Source of the DNA: an uncultured Propionivibrio sp.
GTDB taxonomy: Bacteria > Pseudomonadota > Gammaproteobacteria > Burkholderiales > Rhodocyclaceae
Direction: 5' to 3'
Length of the DNA: 40,035 nt
Assembly: GCA_937923255.1 (NCBI GenBank)
Contig: CALAIL010000009.1
Coordinates: 1-40,035, forward strand
Positions 27,884-38,394 of this stretch are shown one piece after another. Within the stretch, counting starts at the first letter, position 1. Each line of letters starts with the position of its first letter. The translations under genes and the position numbers were made by a program. The notes beneath the pieces were generated by a model that saw only the letters and a program-made list of their open reading frames with translations, was not told the origin of the DNA and did no database searches.

Positions 27884-28352
27884 CGGTAATCACTACGGTG
27901 ATGACATGAGGCCGAAGATGATAGCCGAATATTTGCCGATAAAACGACGTTGCCAGAAGGGCTTTGGTGATGCGGCGGAGCGGCAAGCAGCGCCATGTCG
28001 AATGCTTGCGGGATAAAGTTTGGATTGGTATGGCCGGCAGATGGAAAGCTGAAATATTCCATGCTGCATGAGTGCGCTTCGCCACAAGCTTGTTTTCTGA
28101 TGGCTGTGGACGAGCCGCTTTATGCCTCATTCTTCGGCGCTTTGATTGGTCGGTGGTTCTTGGGGCGAACGACACGCCTTTAAACCCAGGGTCAACTCGA
28201 ATTAGGCATATTGCGTTATGGGAAACGTTACAAGTTCTCGCTTGTTACGCGATCCTGGGCGAGGGAAACGGCTGGCGAAGTGGTGAATGATCACCAAGTC
28301 CGCGACGAATGTTTTCCAAGCCTTTCATTCATCCAGCTTATTGGAGGTACGC
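27884..28352. other. Intergenic region yigM-PsiF gene
   Basis: 469 bp without a supportable gene. It must hold the divergent promoters for both neighbours. ACAAGCTTGT (28084-28093) is a perfect 10-bp palindrome of unknown meaning. GGAGG (28343-28347) is the ribosome binding site of the PsiF gene. Confidence 0.5.
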
Positions 28353-28748
28353 ATGAAAAAAATTATCCCGACCCTGCTTGCCAGTCTTTTTGCCGTCTCT
28401 TTCGCGTATGCACAGACCGCCGCCCCCGCGTCTCCGACGCCCGCAACGGCGACGCCTCCGGCTACTGCACAGACGGCGCCGGCAGCGGCAACGCCTGCCG
28501 CCAGCGCAGAAACACCTGCCGCTGCGTCGCAACAAGCCGCTGCGCCGGCACAGAGCTGCGAACAAAGGGCGATTGATAAAAACGGCAAACCGCTGGCCGG
28601 TGCGGCCAAAACCGCGTTCATGAAAAAATGCGAGCGCGAAACACAGGGAGAAGATCCGTGCGAAGCCAAGGCGATTGGTAAAAACGGTAAGCCGCTGGCC
28701 GGCGCCGCCAAGACCGCATTCATGAAGAAATGCCAGAGTCAGCAGTAA
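28353..28748 (+). CDS. psiF: Secreted PsiF-repeat protein
   Basis: 131 residues. Signal peptide MKKIIPTLLASLFAVSFAYA, then an Ala/Pro/Thr-rich linker (about 21-65), then two PsiF repeats, each 25 residues bounded by cysteines. Repeat 1 is at 28557-28631 and repeat 2 at 28659-28733. They share the core KNGKPLAGAAKTAFMKKC. The family is named for phosphate-starvation-inducible E. coli PsiF; its biochemical role is unknown. The two DNA copies are close, differing mostly at third positions, so the duplication is recent or under strong constraint. The start is set by GGAGG 5 bp before the ATG. The neighbouring phosphate-related genes (HAD phosphatase, Na/Pi carrier) are 7 kb away. Confidence 0.85.
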   Translation: MKKIIPTLLASLFAVSFAYAQTAAPASPTPATATPPATAQTAPAAATPAASAETPAAASQQAAAPAQSCEQRAIDKNGKPLAGAAKTAFMKKCERETQGEDPCEAKAIGKNGKPLAGAAKTAFMKKCQSQQ

Positions 28749-29066: not shown

Positions 29067-29873
29067 ATGGAGCCGCAGAAGGTACGGCTGAAACTGAACG
29101 GACGACATAAAAAAATCCTCGAACAGCTTCGGGAAGAAGGGTTTCTGGCGACGGAGCAGATGGCGCGTGATTTTGCCGTGACGACACAAACCATTCGCCG
29201 CGATATCAACATGCTCAGCAACCGGGGGCTGGTGCGCCGTTATCATGGCGGGGCGGGCGCGGTATCGAGTGTCGAGAATGTGGCTTATGCCTCGCGTCAG
29301 GCGCTCAATCATGAGGCGAAAGCGCGCATTGCGCGCGCGGTTGCGCGACAGATTCCAGATAAGGCTTCACTGTTCATCAATATCGGGACAACGACCGAGG
29401 CGGTTGCCCAAGCGCTGGCAGAACGTAAGAATCTGCGCATCATCACCAATAACCTCAATGTGGCCGCCTGTTTGTGCGGAAACAGTGCCTGTGAAGTGAT
29501 TGTTGCCGGCGGTGTGGTACGTAGCGACCACGGCGTTATTGGCGAATCGACGATCGATTTTATTCGCCAGTTCAAGGTTGATTACGGCATCATCGGCATT
29601 TCTGGCATCGATACCGATGGCGCGCTGCTTGACTACGATTACCGCGAAGTGCGGGTAGCACAGGCGATTATCGAAAACTCCCGCCAGGTTTTTCTGGTGG
29701 CCGATCGGTCGAAGTTCAGCATCGCGCCGATGGTTAAGCTGGGTAACCTGGCGGATATCGATGCGCTCTTTACCGATGCCGAGCCGCCTGCATCGATCGT
29801 TGAACTGTTAGCCGCTTCGCAGACCCGCCTCTTCATTGCCGACGACGGCAAGACGGCCCGAAAACCCGCGTAA
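29067..29873 (+). CDS. glpR: DeoR-family repressor GlpR
   Basis: 268 residues. The N-terminal winged helix-turn-helix is at about 27-50 (LATEQMARDFAVTTQTIRRD), followed by GLVRRYHGGA, the DeoR signature. The C-terminal sugar-phosphate sensing domain has NIGTTTEAVAQAL and the GlpR-like run YGIIGISGIDTDGALLDYDY followed by REVRVAQAIIENSRQVFLV. E. coli GlpR has nearly the same segment, so sn-glycerol 3-phosphate is the likely inducer. A GlpR-type operator lies in the glpD promoter downstream. The last codons and stop (29871-29873) sit inside the first copy of a short tandem repeat. No glpK or glpF is adjacent. Confidence 0.9.
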   Translation: MEPQKVRLKLNGRHKKILEQLREEGFLATEQMARDFAVTTQTIRRDINMLSNRGLVRRYHGGAGAVSSVENVAYASRQALNHEAKARIARAVARQIPDKASLFINIGTTTEAVAQALAERKNLRIITNNLNVAACLCGNSACEVIVAGGVVRSDHGVIGESTIDFIRQFKVDYGIIGISGIDTDGALLDYDYREVRVAQAIIENSRQVFLVADRSKFSIAPMVKLGNLADIDALFTDAEPPASIVELLAASQTRLFIADDGKTARKPA

Positions 29874-30228: not shown

Positions 30229-30272
30229 TTGACAAGTCGTAATGCCAGAATTAATGTTCATAAACGAAAATA
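30229..30272 (+). promoter_or_regulatory. glpD promoter with GlpR-like operator
   Basis: A perfect -35 TTGACA (30229-30234) begins two bases after the terminator. After 17 bp comes TAATGT (30252-30257), a weak -10. Overlapping it at 30253-30272 is AATGTTCATAAACGAAAATA. This matches 17 of 20 positions of the E. coli GlpR operator consensus as I remember it (WATGTTCGWTAWCGAACATW). Repressor bound there would block the -10. A further partial half-site, AATTTTCG, lies near 30326. Confidence 0.65.
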
Positions 30273-30372
30273 ATTGGCTTAATAATTGTTTTTGTATGAA
30301 CAGTTTTTTGGTTTATTGATATCGAATTTTCGTTGTTAACCGGGTCGCACGATGCATGAGGGAGGCTTCCAG

Positions 30373-31986
30373 ATGGAACTGAGAACGGGCAATATCGAAA
30401 AACTCAGCCAGGGCGTCCATGATGTTCTGGTCATTGGCGGCGGCGTCAATGGCGCCGTTGCCGCAGCGGCGCTGTCGGGGAAGGGCGTGAAGGTCGCATT
30501 GATCGATCGGCAGGACTTTGCCAGTTTTACCAGTCAGCAGTCGAGCAACTTGGCCTGGGGCGGTATCAAATATCTGGAAAGCCACGATTTTGCGTTGGTG
30601 CGCGGCTTATGCAAAAGCCGCAATCACTTGCTGGAAAACTACCCTTCGCGGATTCAGGAAATCCGCTTCTTTACAACGATCGAAAAAGGTTTCCGTTTTC
30701 CCCCCTGGTTTATTTGGATGGGCACCTGGGTCTATTGGCTGTTCGGCAATTGTTTTACCCGTCCGCCGCGCCTACTGAGCCGGCGGCTGACCGAACAGGA
30801 AGAGCCAGTGGTCAGCACCGACAATTATTTTGGCGGCTTTGAGTATTCCGATGCCTACCTGCGCGATAACGACGCGCGTTTTGTCTTCCAGTTTGTCCGT
30901 TCGGCGATGGACCGCGGCTGCGTTGCGGCAAATTACGTCGAATCGCTGGGCGCGCGGCGCGAAGACGATGTGTGGGTGGCCAAGGCGCGTGACGTAATTT
31001 CCGGGGAAACGCTGGAAATCCGTGCGCGCGTGCTGATCAACGCCGCAGGTCCTTTCGTGGATGAGCACAATGCGTTGACCGGCGAGCAGACCGAGCACAA
31101 GCACCTGTTCTCAAAGGGCATTCATCTGATTGTTCCGCAGGTCACGACGCACCGAAAAATCCTGACTTTCTTTGCCGATGACGGGCGCTTGTTTTTTGCC
31201 ATCCCGATGGGCAACCGCACCTGCGTGGGAACGACAGATACGCGCGTTGAATCGCCCCATAGCACCGTGACGGAAGAGGATCGCCGTTTCGTGCTCGACA
31301 ACATTAACAAACGTCTGAAACTGGATAAACCGCTGACGTCTGCCGACATCATCGCCGAGCGTTGTGGCGTGCGTCCGCTGGTTGTCAAGCGCAGCAGCGG
31401 CGGCAGCGGTGAGCGCGACTGGCTTTTGCTGTCGCGCAAGCACGAAGTCGACATCAATCGTGAGACGAAGCACATTAGTATTTTTGGCGGAAAGCTGACC
31501 GATTGCGTCAATGTCGGCGACGAAATCAGCGGCATTGTTTCCGGAATGGGCGTGGACGTTCTGCAGCCCGGTTATAAATGGTACGGAGAGCCGCCTGCCT
31601 CGGTACGGGCGGATTTCGAGCGCCAGGCCAAAGACATGAATCTTGACAGACCGGCTTCGCCGCAGGATGCCGAGACGATCAGCGAACGACTATGGAGGCG
31701 TTACGACAAGCGCGCCCTCGAACTGCTCGCCATGATTCGCGAAGATTCGCGTCAGGCCGAGACCATTATCGAAGGCGCGGACTACCTGCGCGGCGAAATT
31801 GCCTTAATGCAGCGCCAGGAAATGATTGTTCGGCTTGAAGACTTTTTACGGCGGCGTTCAATGCTCGCCCTGACCATGCGGCGCGAGGACATCTATCAGG
31901 CAAAAGGCTTGCTAGAAGCCTGTGAAATCCTGTTTGGCAACGAGGCCAGGGCAAAATACGACGAGTATTTTGCAGCGCCGGCGTAA
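30373..31986 (+). CDS. glpD: FAD-dependent glycerol-3-phosphate dehydrogenase
   Basis: Oxidises sn-glycerol 3-phosphate to dihydroxyacetone phosphate at the inner membrane, passing electrons to quinone. The FAD motif VIGGGVNGAVAAAALSGKG starts near residue 20. The next segment, FTSQQSSNLAWGGIKYLES, replaces the SSRSSKLxHGGLRYLE of E. coli GlpD, so this is a divergent subgroup. FAD/substrate motifs TCVGTTDTRVE, ERCGVRPLV and ISIFGGKLTDC follow, then a helical C-terminal cap. 537 residues (E. coli 501). I use the ATG at 30373 because GGGAGG lies 7 bp before it; an ATG at 30352 has no such site. Likely controlled by the glpR product through the operator just upstream. Confidence 0.92.
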   Translation: MELRTGNIEKLSQGVHDVLVIGGGVNGAVAAAALSGKGVKVALIDRQDFASFTSQQSSNLAWGGIKYLESHDFALVRGLCKSRNHLLENYPSRIQEIRFFTTIEKGFRFPPWFIWMGTWVYWLFGNCFTRPPRLLSRRLTEQEEPVVSTDNYFGGFEYSDAYLRDNDARFVFQFVRSAMDRGCVAANYVESLGARREDDVWVAKARDVISGETLEIRARVLINAAGPFVDEHNALTGEQTEHKHLFSKGIHLIVPQVTTHRKILTFFADDGRLFFAIPMGNRTCVGTTDTRVESPHSTVTEEDRRFVLDNINKRLKLDKPLTSADIIAERCGVRPLVVKRSSGGSGERDWLLLSRKHEVDINRETKHISIFGGKLTDCVNVGDEISGIVSGMGVDVLQPGYKWYGEPPASVRADFERQAKDMNLDRPASPQDAETISERLWRRYDKRALELLAMIREDSRQAETIIEGADYLRGEIALMQRQEMIVRLEDFLRRRSMLALTMRREDIYQAKGLLEACEILFGNEARAKYDEYFAAPA

Positions 31987-32241
31987 TCACGAAGACTATA
32001 CTGGGCGAAATAGGGCGTCATGGGCGTAAAAAACCGTTTTTTTCGTATTCCACGGATTTACGCCGAAGCATTTGGCTGGTATTTTCCGGTAGCCGATCTG
32101 CGGATTGTGGGGTCTAGAATCCGCTGCCTGTGTCGGCTGCTGGAATAGAGTTGCCTGAGCCGCGTATCACGGCAGACGTGTTGTTGTACAAGGCAATGGC
32201 GCATGGTGGGAATGGTGGGTATTCTTTTTTCTGGAGAGATT
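31987..32241. promoter_or_regulatory. Spacer and probable promoter region, glpD to TRAP operon
   Basis: 255 bp. GGCGTAAA (32023-32030) and TTTACGCC (32057-32064), with inner CCGT/ACGG, form a hairpin that may end glpD transcription. The 12-mer CGTTTTTTTCGT at 32035-32046 also occurs at 30218-30229 before glpD. GGAGAG (32233-32238) is the ribosome binding site of the TRAP binding-protein gene. Confidence 0.45.
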
Positions 32242-33234
32242 ATGAAACGCAGAATTCTTCTTTTATCGGCATTGGCCTTGCTTGGCGCTTCGACGATGCC
32301 GGCTTTCGCAGCCGAAAAGAAAATTGTGGTCAAGATCGCCGGCATGAAACCTGAGGGCGAACCGGAAACCATCGGCATGAAGCTGTTCGCCAAGTACGTC
32401 ATGGAAGGCACCAAGGGTAAATACGACGTGCGCGTCTTCCCGAACAGCCAGCTTGGCAAGGAAGATGCCTATATCGCCCAGACGCGCAAGGGCATCATCC
32501 AGATGTGTGCGACGGGCACGCAGACTTCATCCTTGTTCCCGGCTATGGCGATGCTGGAAACGCCTATGCTGTACGACAGCCTGGAACACGCGCATAAGGC
32601 GATGAATGGGGAAACCTTCAAGCTGATCAATAAAGGCTTTGCGGAAAAATCCGGCCTGACCATGCTCAATGCGTTCCCGCTCGGTTTCCGCCATTTCTAC
32701 ACCAAGAAACCGATCAGCAGCGTGAATGACCTGAAGGGACTGCGCATGCGCGTACCGAACATTCCGCTTTATCTGGAATTTGCCAAACAGCTTGGCCAGA
32801 GCGGCCAGCCGATGCCGTTTGCTGAAGTGCCAGCGGCGCTCGATCAAGGTACGATCGATGGCGGCGACAGCCCATTTTCCGATATCGTTGCGCTGAAGAT
32901 GTACGAAATTGCGCCGAACATCACGCTGTCCGGCCATATTCTGGTGATCCACTCGCTGTACATCAACAACGATTTCTATAACAAACTGCCGCCGGAAGAC
33001 CGCAAAGTGTTTGACGATGCCGCCAAGCGTTCGGCCGAAGACGTGTGGAAAATGGCCGCCGATGTCGAGAAAAAGGCTGTCGAGGAAATTACCAAGGGCG
33101 GTGGCAAGATCGTAACGCCCAATGCCGAGTTTAAGGCCGCGCTGAAGAAAGCCGGCGAAGGCACCTGGAAACTATTCTACGATACCGTGCCGAACGCCAA
33201 GGAAATTCTGGAAAGTGTGAAGCAGTACCAGTAA
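32242..33234 (+). CDS. dctP: TRAP transporter periplasmic binding protein (DctP family)
   Basis: 330 residues, exported by the signal peptide MKRRILLLSALALLGASTMP-AFA. It has the DctP fold: VFPNSQLGKEDAYIAQTRKG, then the GFRHFYTKKPISSVNDLKGL and RMRVPN region. The Arg of RMRVP is the conserved residue that usually salt-bridges a ligand carboxylate. AEVPAALDQGTIDGGD is the hinge/ligand segment. The ligand cannot be read from sequence; the name dctP is used for the family, not for dicarboxylate. GGAGAG lies 3 bp before the ATG. A hairpin and 222 bp separate it from dctQ, fitting the usual higher expression of binding proteins. The phosphatase and phosphate carrier downstream hint at a phosphorylated ligand. 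Confidence 0.92.
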   Translation: MKRRILLLSALALLGASTMPAFAAEKKIVVKIAGMKPEGEPETIGMKLFAKYVMEGTKGKYDVRVFPNSQLGKEDAYIAQTRKGIIQMCATGTQTSSLFPAMAMLETPMLYDSLEHAHKAMNGETFKLINKGFAEKSGLTMLNAFPLGFRHFYTKKPISSVNDLKGLRMRVPNIPLYLEFAKQLGQSGQPMPFAEVPAALDQGTIDGGDSPFSDIVALKMYEIAPNITLSGHILVIHSLYINNDFYNKLPPEDRKVFDDAAKRSAEDVWKMAADVEKKAVEEITKGGGKIVTPNAEFKAALKKAGEGTWKLFYDTVPNAKEILESVKQYQ

Positions 33235-33250
33235 GTTAGCGTCGATCGTT

Positions 33251-33284
33251 CCGGAAGATGCGCTTGGGGACGGCCATCTTCCGG
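33251..33284 (+). other. Hairpin between TRAP binding-protein and membrane-subunit genes
   Basis: CCGGAAGATG (33251-33260) and CATCTTCCGG (33275-33284) form a perfect 10-bp stem with a 14-base loop, 16 bp after the dctP stop. Only a weak T-run follows (TGTTTTGCC). It probably protects the dctP mRNA 3' end or causes partial termination. Confidence 0.7.
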
Positions 33285-33456
33285 CAATGTTTTGCCAGTC
33301 CTGTTGTTGTTTGAGGGGATGAAAAAGTCGGGCGGTGGTGCCGGATGTGCGCCGCTGTTCCGTAAATGGCGGTTGACGGGCGTTTCGATGCGCTTGCCCG
33401 CACCGCGTCGCTGCTGAAACAGAGGTTGTCAATCGAGAAAAGACAGGAGCGTCACG

Positions 33457-33978
33457 ATGAGCGAGCTTATGCCCGAAAAACCAGAGGAAAAAGACAGCAA
33501 AGCGGAAGTGATCTTCCAGATATTCTGCGCGGTGATTTTCCTGTCCATGATCGGACTGGTCTTTTATAACGCAATCCTCCGCTATGCCTTCAAGTCCAGC
33601 TTTGCGCCCAGCGAGGAATGGGCGCGCATTCTGTTTATGTACATCACCTTCTTCGGCTCTATCGAAGGGTTTTACCGCGGCCGACATATCGCGGTCGATA
33701 TGCTGACCAATCTGCTCAGCGGCGTCACCAAGAAAACCGTCGATATCTTCGCGCAGCTGCTGGCACTGGCGGCGCTATTGCTGCTGCTCATTGGCGGCGT
33801 CTCGCTGGTCCAGCAGACGATCGATACCTCGACAGTGGCTACCGGCCTGAATATGGCCTTTGTCAATGGTACGTTGCCGATTATGGCGTTTGCCGTCATC
33901 CTCATTCGCGGGCGCGAACTTCTGCGCACAATCAAAAAACCTGCGTCCGAATTTGTGCGCGTGAAAAAGGAATTCTGA
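33457..33978 (+). CDS. dctQ: TRAP transporter small membrane subunit (DctQ family)
   Basis: 173 residues with four hydrophobic helices (about 19-41, 56-72, 95-117 and 130-150). The DctQ pattern is visible in NAILRYAFKSSFAPSEEWAR (helix-loop with the conserved EE/W) and in GRHIAVDMLTNLL. It forms the small integral subunit that supports DctM in sodium-driven uptake. AGGAG lies 7 bp before the ATG. The dctM start is one base after its stop. Confidence 0.93.
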   Translation: MSELMPEKPEEKDSKAEVIFQIFCAVIFLSMIGLVFYNAILRYAFKSSFAPSEEWARILFMYITFFGSIEGFYRGRHIAVDMLTNLLSGVTKKTVDIFAQLLALAALLLLLIGGVSLVQQTIDTSTVATGLNMAFVNGTLPIMAFAVILIRGRELLRTIKKPASEFVRVKKEF

Positions 33979-33979
33979 C

Positions 33980-35257
33980 ATGGAACTGCTCGTTTTCCTC
34001 GGCAGCCTGTTTTTCTTCCTGCTGCTCAATATTCCGATTGCGCTGGTCATGGTGCTCGCGGCCATCGTGCTGATGCTGTATTCCGGCGATAACGACTTCA
34101 TGATCATTCCCCAGGCAATGGTCGACGGCGTCAATAACTATCCGCTAATGGCAATTCCCTTCTTTGTTTTTGCCGGCGAGATTATGGCCAAGGGCGGGTT
34201 GTCCAAACGCGTCATTTTGCTGGCGCAGCTGATGATCGGCCGCGTTAAAGGCGGCCTGGGATACGCAACGATCATTGCTTCAATCATCTTTGCCGGCCTG
34301 ATGGGGAGTTCGGTCGGTGAGGCGGCGGCGCTGATGGGGATTCTCTATCCGATGATGAAAGATGCCGGCTACGACCGCGGTCGTGCCGGTGGCGTGATTG
34401 CCTCGGGCGCCATCCTAGGGCCCATCATTCCCCCTTCCGCCAACTTCATCCTGTTGGGCGCGACGATGGAGCTGTCGATCACCAAGCTGTTCATGATCGG
34501 CCTGGTTCCCGGCCTGCTGATTGGCCTGTTTCTGCTGGTCATGTGGTTCTTCATCGTCAGGAAAGACGGCTATTCGGAAACAATTACCTTTACGCGTGCA
34601 GAAGCTATCAGCATCCTGAAGGAAGCGACACCGGCTTTCATGCTGCCGGTACTGCTGCTGGGCGGTATCCGCGGCGGTATTTTTACGCCGACCGAAGGCG
34701 GCGCCTTCGCCGCAGTTTACGCCATCGTCGTGACGATGCTCTATTACCGCGAGCTTCCCCTGCGCGACCTGCTGCGCGTCAGCGCCACGGCAGCACGCAG
34801 TACCGCCGTGGTCATGCTCATCGTCGGCGCGGCCACAGCCGTCGGCTGGTTCATCACCGCGGCGCAGATTCCGGCGCAGATGACGGCTTTCTTCCAGCCG
34901 CTGGTGCCAACGCCAACCCTGCTGTTGCTCGCGATCATGGTCTTCCTGTTCGCCGCCGGCATGGTCATGGATCTGACGCCAAACATCCTGCTGTTCGCGC
35001 CGGTGTTCTATCCGCTTACCACCGCCGCCGGTATCGACCCGTACTTTTTCGGCCTGCTTTTCGTGCTGAACGTCGGCATCGGCGTCATCACGCCGCCGGT
35101 CGGCACGGTACTGTTCGTCGTCTGCGGTTCGGCCGGCATTTCGATGGGCTATCTTGTCCGCAAGATGGCGCCGTTCCTGCTGATGGAAGCCGCTGTGCTA
35201 TTGACCTTGCTGCTCTTCCCGAAAATTTCGCTGATTCCGCTCAAGTGGCTGACGTAA
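33980..35257 (+). CDS. dctM: TRAP transporter large membrane subunit (DctM family)
   Basis: 425 residues and about 11-12 helices; the ion-coupled translocation subunit. Family motifs: IPFFVFAGEIMAKGGLSKR, GLMGSSVGEAAALMGILYP, and GAILGPIIPPSANFILLGA. In the second half come TPTEGGAFAAVYA, MDLTPNILLFAPVFYPL and NVGIGVITPPVGTVLFV. The ribosome binding site AAGGA lies in the end of dctQ. The following phosphatase gene starts one base after the dctM stop, so translation is coupled. Confidence 0.95.
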   Translation: MELLVFLGSLFFFLLLNIPIALVMVLAAIVLMLYSGDNDFMIIPQAMVDGVNNYPLMAIPFFVFAGEIMAKGGLSKRVILLAQLMIGRVKGGLGYATIIASIIFAGLMGSSVGEAAALMGILYPMMKDAGYDRGRAGGVIASGAILGPIIPPSANFILLGATMELSITKLFMIGLVPGLLIGLFLLVMWFFIVRKDGYSETITFTRAEAISILKEATPAFMLPVLLLGGIRGGIFTPTEGGAFAAVYAIVVTMLYYRELPLRDLLRVSATAARSTAVVMLIVGAATAVGWFITAAQIPAQMTAFFQPLVPTPTLLLLAIMVFLFAAGMVMDLTPNILLFAPVFYPLTTAAGIDPYFFGLLFVLNVGIGVITPPVGTVLFVVCGSAGISMGYLVRKMAPFLLMEAAVLLTLLLFPKISLIPLKWLT

Positions 35258-35258
35258 C

Positions 35259-36026
35259 GTGAATATCGAACATAAAAAGTGCTTCGTCTTCGATCTGGAC
35301 GGCACCGTCTACCTCGGAGACGAGCCGATTCACGGCACCGTCGACTTCATCCGGCGCAATATGGCGCACCGGGAGATTTACTTCCTGACCAACAATACCT
35401 CCAAAAACCTGGGAGACTACGTGCGCAAGCTTGCCCGTATCGGCATCGAAACGGGCGTCGAACGCATCCTTTCGCCCCTGCTGCCGCTTGCGGACTATCT
35501 TGAGGCGGAAGGCATCGGACGCCTGTACCCGGTGGGTAACGCGAGCTTCCAGGCCTACCTGAAGCAGCGCCTGCCGGGGATCGAATTCACGGCAGGCGCA
35601 CACTGCCAGGCCGTCGTCCTCGGTTACGATACCGAGCTGACTTACGCAAAATTGGCGGATTCGTGCCTGCTGCTCCAGCGACCGGAAATTCGTTTTCTCT
35701 CCACACACCCCGATCTCGTGTGCCCTTCGCCGCAGGGGCCGTTGCCGGACGCCGGCAGCTTCGTCAAACTTTATGAAGCGGCGACCGGACGTTTGCCGGA
35801 AATCGTTTTTGGCAAACCCAATACATTGATTTTGTCGCCGCTCCTCAAACGCTTTCAGCCCGACGAGATGGTTATGGTGGGTGACCGGTTGTCGACGGAC
35901 AAACGGCTGGCCGAAAATGCGGGTATCGACTTCATCCTCGTCTTGAGCGGCGAAGCCAAGCGCGAAGATCTGCTAACGCAGATACGCCAGCCTAGTCTGG
36001 TGGTGGATCACCTGGGTGGTTTTTGA
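35259..36026 (+). CDS. HAD-IIA phosphatase (NagD/AraL/PGP-like)
   Basis: 255 residues with all four HAD motifs: DLDGT (12-16, nucleophile Asp12 and acid Asp14), LTNNTSKN (43-50), Lys186 in FGKPN, and GDRLSTD (208-214). The C2a cap between motifs II and III places it in subclass IIA. This includes NagD, AraL, pyridoxal phosphatases, and glycerol-3-phosphate/phosphoglycolate phosphatases. Substrates are usually small sugar or polyol phosphates. It starts with GTG at 35259, one base after the dctM stop, so it belongs to the TRAP operon. This is the main reason to suspect that the imported compound is, or becomes, phosphorylated. Glycerol 3-phosphate is one candidate given glpR-glpD upstream; not proven. 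Confidence 0.9.
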   Translation: MNIEHKKCFVFDLDGTVYLGDEPIHGTVDFIRRNMAHREIYFLTNNTSKNLGDYVRKLARIGIETGVERILSPLLPLADYLEAEGIGRLYPVGNASFQAYLKQRLPGIEFTAGAHCQAVVLGYDTELTYAKLADSCLLLQRPEIRFLSTHPDLVCPSPQGPLPDAGSFVKLYEAATGRLPEIVFGKPNTLILSPLLKRFQPDEMVMVGDRLSTDKRLAENAGIDFILVLSGEAKREDLLTQIRQPSLVVDHLGGF

Positions 36027-36062
36027 GTGGTATGTTGGGCAATGTTCTGGGCGGTAAGGTAG

Positions 36063-37748
36063 ATGACTGAATCGGGAACCTACGAACTGACGATGATTCT
36101 GGGAGCGGCCACGCTGATGCTGTGGGGCGTGCGTATGGCCAGAACCGGCGTGATGCGGATGTATGGCGCTGAGATCCGTAAATTCCTGCCCAAGGCGCTG
36201 AAAAACCGCCTGATCGCCCTGCTGGCAGGGGCAGGCTCGGCCACCATCCTGCAAAGTTCGATTGCCGTGGCCATTTTTACCTCATCACTGGCCGCTTCCG
36301 GCGTCATTCCGGTCGCCGATGGCCTGGTGCTGATGCTCGGCGCGGACGCCGGCAGCGCCATTGTCGCCGCCCTGCTGACGCTCAATCTCAAAGCGTTCTG
36401 GCCCGTCCTCATGTTTCTGGGCTACGTACTGCATTCCAGCTATTCCGAAACCAATTCGCCGATCAAGCAGCTCGGGCGCATTCTGCTCGGCATCGCCATG
36501 ATCCTCGTCGCACTGACTTTCATGGGGCAAGTGTCCTCGGCGCTGGCGGAAAGCGAACTGATCCGGACGATCATCATGTCGCTCGGCAACGAACTGTTCA
36601 TCGCACTTCTGCTCTTTGCGATCCTGACCTGGCTAGCGCATTCGTCGATCGCCATTTTGCTGTTCTGGGCATCGCTTGTGCAGGCGGGCATTACCGACAA
36701 TTCCGCGCTGATCATTGCGGCGATTCTGGGCATCAACGTCGGCAATTCCATTCCCCCCATCGTCATGAGCATGAATCAGGCCCCGCCCTCGCGCCGTATC
36801 GTTGTTGGGCACGGACTCATCAAGCTGGCGGGCGTCGTCGGCTGCTTTATCTGCCTTCGTCTGATTCAGGGGGTATATCACATCGTGCCAGGGCAGCCAG
36901 GATTCCGGGTCGTCGTGCTGCATATCCTGTTCAATCTGCTGCTGATCGTCTTCTTTGCCTGGCAGGCCGGGACTATTGCAAGGTTTATGGAGCGCTTTTT
37001 TGTCACTACCGAAAAAACTACTGACGATAACGGCCCCAAATACATTCCGGAAGCCTCGCAGGTCGATACGGTTCCGGTGGCTTTCCCCGTTCTCTCGCTG
37101 ACCCGGGAAATCCTGCGCATTCTCGGCACAATCCAGAACATGCTGGAGAAAATGCTGGAACTGCTGCTTTCCGGGAAATACGAGGACACCGAAGAGATCG
37201 TGCGCATGGAGGAAAAAGTCGACCGGCTGTTCAAGGCCGTGCGCGCTTATGCGGTATTTTTAACCCGTAAAGATCTGAGCAATGCCGAACAGCGCAAGGT
37301 TTCCGCACTGCTGCGCTACACTGCCAGCCTTGAAAATTCAGGCGATGTGATCAGCAAAACGATGGTCGGCATCTTCAAGTCGATCAAGCGTTCCGACTAT
37401 CAGTTTTCCGAGCAGGGAAAATCCGAGCTGGATATGCTTTTCCGCTTCCTGATCGGAACGGCGCAGCTTGCCGGCGAAGTCATCATGGCCTGGCATCCCG
37501 ATACCGCGGAGCTGCTCATTGAGCGTAAACGCGAGATGAAAAACATGTGCCATAACAGTTCCAAGGAACATGTCCAACGGCTCAGCCAGGGGGTATCGAA
37601 TGCGCTGGCTTCCAGCTCTGGCCATCTCGACCTGATCTCCGAACTGCGCTGGATCAGTACGCAGATTTCGAGCATCGGCTACGACATTCTGCCGGACGAA
37701 TCTTCCGACACTGAGGCGGAAGAGCGGCTGATCGGCCATTCAGAATAA
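36063..37748 (+). CDS. Na/Pi-cotransporter family protein with PhoU-like tail
   Basis: 561 residues. The N-terminal half has the two inverted Na/Pi-cotransporter repeats, each with a QSS-type motif: ATILQSSIAVAIF (Gln64-Ser65-Ser66) and TWLAHSSIAILLF (His193-Ser194-Ser195, where the classical repeat has Gln). About eight to nine helices end near 310. From about 345 to 545 is a soluble helical domain resembling PhoU, a regulator of phosphate flux, with paired-helix patterns such as MEEKVDRLFKAVRAYAVFL. Bacterial members (YjbB-like) often export phosphate. It is 36 bp after the phosphatase gene, so probably in the same operon, where it could remove or balance the phosphate released. Confidence 0.88.
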   Translation: MTESGTYELTMILGAATLMLWGVRMARTGVMRMYGAEIRKFLPKALKNRLIALLAGAGSATILQSSIAVAIFTSSLAASGVIPVADGLVLMLGADAGSAIVAALLTLNLKAFWPVLMFLGYVLHSSYSETNSPIKQLGRILLGIAMILVALTFMGQVSSALAESELIRTIIMSLGNELFIALLLFAILTWLAHSSIAILLFWASLVQAGITDNSALIIAAILGINVGNSIPPIVMSMNQAPPSRRIVVGHGLIKLAGVVGCFICLRLIQGVYHIVPGQPGFRVVVLHILFNLLLIVFFAWQAGTIARFMERFFVTTEKTTDDNGPKYIPEASQVDTVPVAFPVLSLTREILRILGTIQNMLEKMLELLLSGKYEDTEEIVRMEEKVDRLFKAVRAYAVFLTRKDLSNAEQRKVSALLRYTASLENSGDVISKTMVGIFKSIKRSDYQFSEQGKSELDMLFRFLIGTAQLAGEVIMAWHPDTAELLIERKREMKNMCHNSSKEHVQRLSQGVSNALASSSGHLDLISELRWISTQISSIGYDILPDESSDTEAEERLIGHSE

Positions 37749-37814: not shown

Positions 37815-37964
37815 GTTCCTTTCCGGTAGAACGGCGCGCACCGCTAACAGCCCTACAGCCCGCTGAATACGGGCATTTCCCGCCGGTATGCCCGGAAATC
37901 CGCTCAGGACGTGGGTTTGCGGCCAGGCAGGCCGGAAATGCCCTATCGGCGCGGGCTTGCGCGG
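37815..37964 (+). repeat. Dispersed palindromic element, copy 1
   Basis: Begins GTTCCTTTCCGGT. Inside, arms of 24 bp at 37857-37880 and 37934-37957 are imperfect inverse complements: both ends read AGCCCGC and GGGCATTTCC around a 7-bp variable middle. A nested hairpin is CGGGCAT (37870-37876), 11-base loop, ATGCCCG (37888-37894). The size and structure suggest a REP/BIME or MITE-like element. Confidence 0.85.
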
Positions 37965-38054: not shown

Positions 38055-38207
38055 GTTCCTTTCCGGTTAGGACGGCGCGCACCGCCAAGACCACCCTGAA
38101 GCCCGCTGAATACGGGCATTTGCCGTCGGTATGCCCGGAAAGCCGCTCAGGACGTGGGTTTGCGGCCGGGCAGGCCGGAAACGCCCTATCGACGCGGGCT
38201 TGCGCGG
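38055..38207 (+). repeat. Dispersed palindromic element, copy 2
   Basis: Direct repeat of copy 1, well over 80 percent identical by eye. The same nested hairpin is CGGGCAT (38113-38119), 11-base loop, ATGCCCG (38131-38137). The loop has changed (TTGCCGTCGGT versus TTCCCGCCGGT) while the stem has not. This is what selection for structure would give. Confidence 0.85.
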
Positions 38208-38316: not shown

Positions 38317-38394
38317 ACGAATTGCGGCGGTTGGTCGCGACAGTGACAAGAAAGATGGGCGCCGCGGAAGGATGGCCGCGGCGGTTGCGTGACG

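Follow-up and report, generated by a model that had tools for sequence, protein, structure and literature searches.

The glp regulon of Escherichia coli joins the GlpT antiporter, which swaps glycerol-3-phosphate (G3P) for inorganic phosphate (Pi), to the regulator GlpR and the dehydrogenase GlpD. A tripartite ATP-independent periplasmic (TRAP) route is indicated by the crystal structure of the solute-binding protein Ddes_1525 (4NHB), in which glycerol phosphate is bound (Vetting et al. 2015, as reported in the available parts of PMC11668362 and PMC5812351); the account given in those parts concerns the ligand of the binding protein and describes no module with a phosphatase and a phosphate carrier. 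In a 40,035-nucleotide stretch of contig CALAIL010000009.1 from an uncultured Propionivibrio sp. (GCA_937923255.1; hereafter the window), genes for a TRAP transporter, a HAD-IIA phosphatase and a Na/Pi-cotransporter protein with a PhoU tail follow glpR-like and glpD-like genes on the same strand. We propose, with a probability of roughly 60%, that this operon serves the catabolism of external G3P and includes a Pi exit and an overflow phosphatase. It resembles the E. coli regulon in predicted substrate, regulator family and oxidation step, and differs from it in i) import by a TRAP system, for which another exit for Pi is needed, ii) the added phosphatase, and iii) GlpR and GlpD relatives that fall below the equivalog cut-offs. 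The parts are individually known; the combination of transporter, phosphatase, carrier and glp genes is a new variant. No description of the assembled module was found in the open-licence literature searched, any genome-context remarks in Vetting et al. 2015 lying outside that search.

All three TRAP components are encoded together, as seen from family profile matches in the window: the solute-binding protein DctP (32242..33234, + strand; PF03480/NF037995), the small membrane subunit DctQ (33457..33978, +; PF04290, 87.2 bits) and the large membrane subunit DctM (33980..35257, +; PF06808; TIGR00786, 404.5 bits). The dctP start was taken as the ATG at 32242, with GGAGAG right before it, and not as the mechanical open reading frame (ORF) start at 32203, because 4NHB starts at the equivalent position. 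DctP is 66% identical to Ddes_1525, which ranks first among structures and has the same fold, and it possesses the pocket features of that type: the two phosphate-holding arginines, a serine in place of the SiaP-type asparagine, and the lysine of domain I within the motif AGMKPEGEPE. The four residues (R150, R170, S210 and K36) are present in 49/49 aligned DctP sequences; K36 would correspond to the domain I lysine of the literature, and S210 to the presumed position of the SiaP asparagine. DctP proteins of P. dicarboxylicus and genome G127 are 91-94% identical to that of the window. Import of a small phosphate ester, as put forward in the initial annotation, is most likely, and its first-choice ligand, G3P, is well supported as a prediction by the identity and pocket match to 4NHB and by the linkage to glp genes. 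On the same grounds its alternatives, phosphoglycolate and phosphoglycerate, become much less likely and were dropped. Carboxylates make up the majority of known TRAP ligands in the parts of the literature available, but a plain carboxylate transporter sharing the operon with glp genes by chance has a very low probability given the match to 4NHB and the repeated occurrence next to G3P dehydrogenases of more than one kind.

Downstream, exactly one base separates the dctM stop from the HAD-IIA phosphatase gene (35259..36026, +; GTG start; TIGR01460, PF13344, PF13242), and the gene for the Na/Pi-cotransporter II family protein (36063..37748, +; ATG start; PF02690, PF01895) begins 36 bp after the phosphatase stop; the five-gene order and spacing reported earlier are exact in both DNA and family matches. 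A scan of species genomes yielded 77 loci. Fifteen of them (L001-L015, with DctP at least 80% identical) represent the Alpha/Beta form and derive from Propionivibrio, Accumulibacter-labelled bins, three alphaproteobacteria and others; the remaining 62 are nearly all from Desulfovibrionaceae. In the Alpha/Beta form, dctQM and the Na/Pi gene each follow in 14 loci and the phosphatase gene in 13; 11 loci have a GlpD-like gene ahead and six have GlpR nearby. At L005 both the phosphatase and the carrier are missing because the contig breaks off 104 bp past dctP, and at L014 there is no phosphatase gene. The association of phosphatase and carrier with the TRAP genes in these 15 loci is beyond chance. 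Among the 62 Desulfovibrio-type loci, dctQM comes next in 55; 19 have the phosphatase at most 8 kb away, 20 have GlpA and 22 either or both, and GlpR occurs in four and GlpK and the Na/Pi protein in one each. Many of these contigs are short; 17 of the 34 loci with enough flanking sequence (2.5 kb or more upstream, 5.5 kb or more downstream) contain the phosphatase or a G3P dehydrogenase. The genes of the module keep together closely in the Alpha/Beta form and loosely in Desulfovibrio. The expected conservation of the gene order and of its glp link holds for the former and is weaker in the latter, and the expected co-occurrence with the TRAP system is borne out for the phosphatase and only half so for the carrier (14/15 vs 1/62 loci).

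The neighbouring glpR-like gene (29067..29873, +; PF08220, PF00455) and glpD-like gene (30352..31986, +; true start perhaps more downstream) are named by family only, since the NCBI equivalog cut-offs are not reached. The DeoR-family regulator scores 303 vs 331 bits with PRK10906; the putative FAD-dependent G3P dehydrogenase, of a divergent class, scores 253.4 vs 360 bits with PRK12266, its best family, and is 29% identical to E. coli GlpD. Of the E. coli GlpD active-site residues, the counterparts of Y55, R317, R332 and K354 are kept and R54 is replaced by Lys. This class is shared by the window, P. dicarboxylicus and G127, whereas the other ten loci having a GlpD-like gene carry a second class; the two are 28% identical, and for both the best family is G3P dehydrogenase, below cut-off. 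In the Desulfovibrio loci the G3P dehydrogenase is GlpABC. That different G3P dehydrogenases are swapped beside one transporter is good indirect evidence for G3P as its cargo. It is quite improbable that the ligand is a different glycerophospho compound (diglycerol phosphate or a glycerophosphodiester, for example) that would be cut to G3P inside the cell. TRAP proteins of this kind exist, as exemplified by Desal_0342 (4N6K), which binds diglycerol phosphate; however, the window DctP is nearest to 4NHB, and 4N6K is without the domain I lysine. Furthermore, E. coli GlpQ and UgpQ queries gave no match above 50 bits at the 77 loci, and GDPD-family diesterase genes are found in 9/24 genomes.

Upstream of the glpD-like gene lies a pair of GlpR-operator-like sites (30254..30302), at 30254-30271 with two mismatches and at 30287-30302 with three, relative to the E. 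coli GlpR consensus. They gain weight because P. dicarboxylicus and G127 have a perfect ATGTTYG-N4-CRAACAT palindrome at the position of the second site. Sites with at most two mismatches number 25 across 1.3 Mb of loci; three mononucleotide shuffles, for which the prefilter was slightly strict, gave 9, 6 and 8. Of the 25, 11 lie at most 350 bp upstream of a match to glpD, glpR, dctP or, once, glpC.

The HAD-IIA protein is above the TIGR01460 cut-off (120.1 vs 100.15 bits). Its catalytic residues D12, D14, K186, D209 and D214 are invariant in 41/41 aligned sequences, and the alignment rows shown have Thr or Ser at residue 44 of motif II. Assignment of its substrate by fold was ruled out: TM1742 is the nearest structure, and the G3P phosphatases rank amid many HAD-IIA structures without being set apart. 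Specificity is likewise not transferable from the G3P phosphatases Rv1692 and mammalian PGP, at 25-27% identity. HAD-IIA enzymes are present in catabolic sugar operons as AraL and NagD, and for AraL a relief of phosphometabolite build-up was proposed; the window enzyme differs in its partner pathway, G3P oxidation, and in its nearest fold. Genome context suggests G3P or dihydroxyacetone phosphate (DHAP) as the substrate. In a Desulfovibrionaceae sample, 31/46 orthologues are within 5 kb of GlpA and 10/46 within 5 kb of DctP, and in one genome without a Ddes_1525-type DctP the orthologue is directly behind GlpD. The closeness to GlpA makes it likelier that oxidation to DHAP is the main route, with the phosphatase serving as a side or overflow valve. 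Accordingly, the earlier suggestion that the phosphatase cleaves the imported ester is upheld in its link to G3P genes and not as the main step. An overflow role is also favoured by the presence of GlpK above cut-off elsewhere in 17/23 TRAP genomes (the genome of L012 being outside this set), where a free-running G3P phosphatase would create a futile cycle. The initial annotation had noted no glpK or glpF; E. coli GlpK and GlpF queries indeed gave no match above 50 bits in the window, and the statement does not extend to these relatives. Alternatively, the G3P module might be limited to transporter and dehydrogenase, and the phosphatase might be a HAD-IIA enzyme for general housecleaning whose main substrates are other phosphometabolites. 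This appears somewhat unlikely to us: the linkage to the G3P dehydrogenase and transporter is kept across 53-78% identity, and each of the 19 genomes searched has a single HAD relative with an E value of 1e-8 or lower. As a separate observation, in four loci from the family of D. piger (L091, L092, L096 and L097) a HAD-IIA orthologue (70-71% identity) lies near an ABC transporter, which is of phosphonate type in L091.

Outward Pi transport is not known for TRAP importers, so each three-carbon unit would bring one phosphate into the cell. GlpT above the TIGR00712 cut-off was found in 0/24 genomes, all of them from relatives of the window's organism, in a genome-wide search aimed at GlpT; weaker relatives below cut-off are present in 15 of the 24. 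Hence, the Na/Pi protein may supply the Pi exit otherwise given by GlpT antiport. It has PF02690 followed by a PhoU domain (PF01895), the domain order of E. coli YjbB, from which it is divergent (26% identity over 544 columns) and differs in its location inside a G3P operon. Entry P0121 is 100% identical to it, and P0128, from an uncultured Propionivibrio, is 74% identical. Overexpression of YjbB makes Pi export possible (available parts of PMC11850910, citing Motomura 2011), and by analogy the window carrier may also work outward. PF02690 is found in 12/23 genomes, with the locus copy among the matches in all 12; it is the sole such gene in 11, and G009 has a second. The completeness of the searched genomes is not given and absences may be gaps. 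The claim that the carrier disposes of Pi is plausible for the Alpha/Beta form and does not carry over to the Desulfovibrio form, in which 11/11 genomes are without PF02690.

The carrier could have a different function if the operon served phosphorus scavenging, with G3P as a phosphate source, the phosphatase freeing Pi, glycerol discarded and the Na/Pi protein also importing Pi. The Na/Pi II family includes importers such as NptA, named relatives of the window protein are annotated as phosphate:Na+ symporter or Na/Pi cotransporter, and a gene that weakly matches the PsiF repeat (28287-28748; 24.5 bits, cut-off 21) ends 318 bp before glpR. We nevertheless judge this explanation improbable in view of the GlpR-like regulator, the genomic linkage to G3P oxidation and the resemblance of the carrier to YjbB, a Pi exporter when overexpressed (same parts of PMC11850910). 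Pho-regulon control was considered and rejected: the PhoB-box pattern has no match near the operon start, and its six matches in the window (3.3 expected) come nearest at 38337, past the operon end.

In the catabolic scheme that we prefer, DctP would capture periplasmic G3P and DctQM would import it, presumably with sodium. The GlpD-like enzyme would oxidize most of the G3P to DHAP, which would enter glycolysis, and the GlpR-like regulator, presumably sensing G3P, would control the glpD-like gene and perhaps the entire run. Surplus Pi would leave via the Na/Pi-PhoU protein, an exit needed because the importer, unlike the GlpT antiporter, offers the entering phosphate no way out. When G3P (or DHAP) accumulates, for example when electron acceptors are short, the HAD-IIA enzyme would dephosphorylate it to glycerol (or dihydroxyacetone) and Pi. 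The ligand of the transporter and the predicted pathway of transporter, phosphatase and dehydrogenase are supported by homology and linkage. More tentatively, the system may be a split replacement of GlpT, with sodium-coupled TRAP import, a dedicated Na/Pi-PhoU exit for Pi and a G3P-specific HAD-IIA safety valve, the latter forming a new family of bacterial G3P phosphatases that accompanies genes for the uptake and oxidation of G3P in Alpha- and Betaproteobacteria and in Desulfovibrionaceae. The proposed module extends the crystal-structure ligand of one binding protein to a full testable pathway and points to a way in which bacteria lacking GlpT might grow on G3P despite the phosphate entering with every molecule. 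It also yields a specific prediction of the substrate for one HAD-IIA group and proposes a role for a Na/Pi-PhoU carrier; in both families, functions are mostly assigned by guesswork.

Several observations weigh against this interpretation. Operator-like matches in the window as a whole are near chance (27 vs 19.2 expected; 6/100 shuffles reach 27). HAD-IIA enzymes are frequently promiscuous, an unregulated G3P phosphatase would be futile beside the widespread GlpK, and in some Desulfovibrionaceae the phosphatase sits by a phosphonate-type ABC transporter instead. PF02690 occurs in 0/11 Desulfovibrio genomes searched, all of which carry the Ddes_1525-type TRAP system and the HAD phosphatase; together with the single Na/Pi protein at the 62 Desulfovibrio-type loci, this argues that such a Pi exit is not essential. 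Thirty-six of these 62 loci are without the phosphatase, GlpA/GlpD and GlpR nearby (two of them, L055 and L070, have GlpC at the contig end), and 13 of the 34 adequately flanked ones carry nothing of the set. The alphaproteobacterial loci L011, L014 and L015, in which GlpR is present, have no GlpD-like gene or GlpA in reach, and two of them keep phosphatase and carrier, so that in these loci the phosphatase accompanies the transporter and not the dehydrogenase. Finally, Fisher tests take no account of kinship.

Regarding other features of the window, a structured RNA leader was rejected, the sole above-threshold Rfam match being a tRNA, as was plasmid carriage, with no PLSDB match by protein (E 1e-60) or near-identical DNA. 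Scans gave one promoter-like site vs 5.0 expected and 14 terminator-like ones vs 12.4 expected; no transcript boundary is claimed since these counts are at or below chance level. Downstream of the operon, two 114-bp direct repeats (37851-37964 and 38094-38207) are 93% identical and 243 bp apart.

Additional genes were observed beside the TRAP genes of relatives. An uncharacterized protein of ~1010 residues accompanies Ddes_1525-type TRAP genes in one alphaproteobacterium (L014:11168-14200) and three Desulfovibrionaceae loci (L018:12134-15169, L099:8154-11207 and, partial, L016); in L014 it has 1011 residues, stands with a YjbB-like carrier and replaces the HAD phosphatase. By eye, it contains an HxH motif resembling PHP phosphoesterases and hydrophobic stretches in the C-terminal half. 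The three full-length proteins have no Pfam match and the two scanned have no NCBIfam match; there are at least 2130 relatives, and the names given in the 120 rows listed are all hypothetical or uncharacterized. In L001 (13578-15791), a SulP-family transporter with STAS and cyclic-nucleotide-binding domains, whose best NCBIfam is BicA, below cut-off, directly follows the Na/Pi gene; it is absent from the window, and ORFs with similar starts follow the Na/Pi gene in L006 and L009. In a Desulfovibrio bin, a gene located between dctM and the HAD gene (L019:9442-10941) encodes a glycerol kinase that shares 72% identity with E. coli GlpK.

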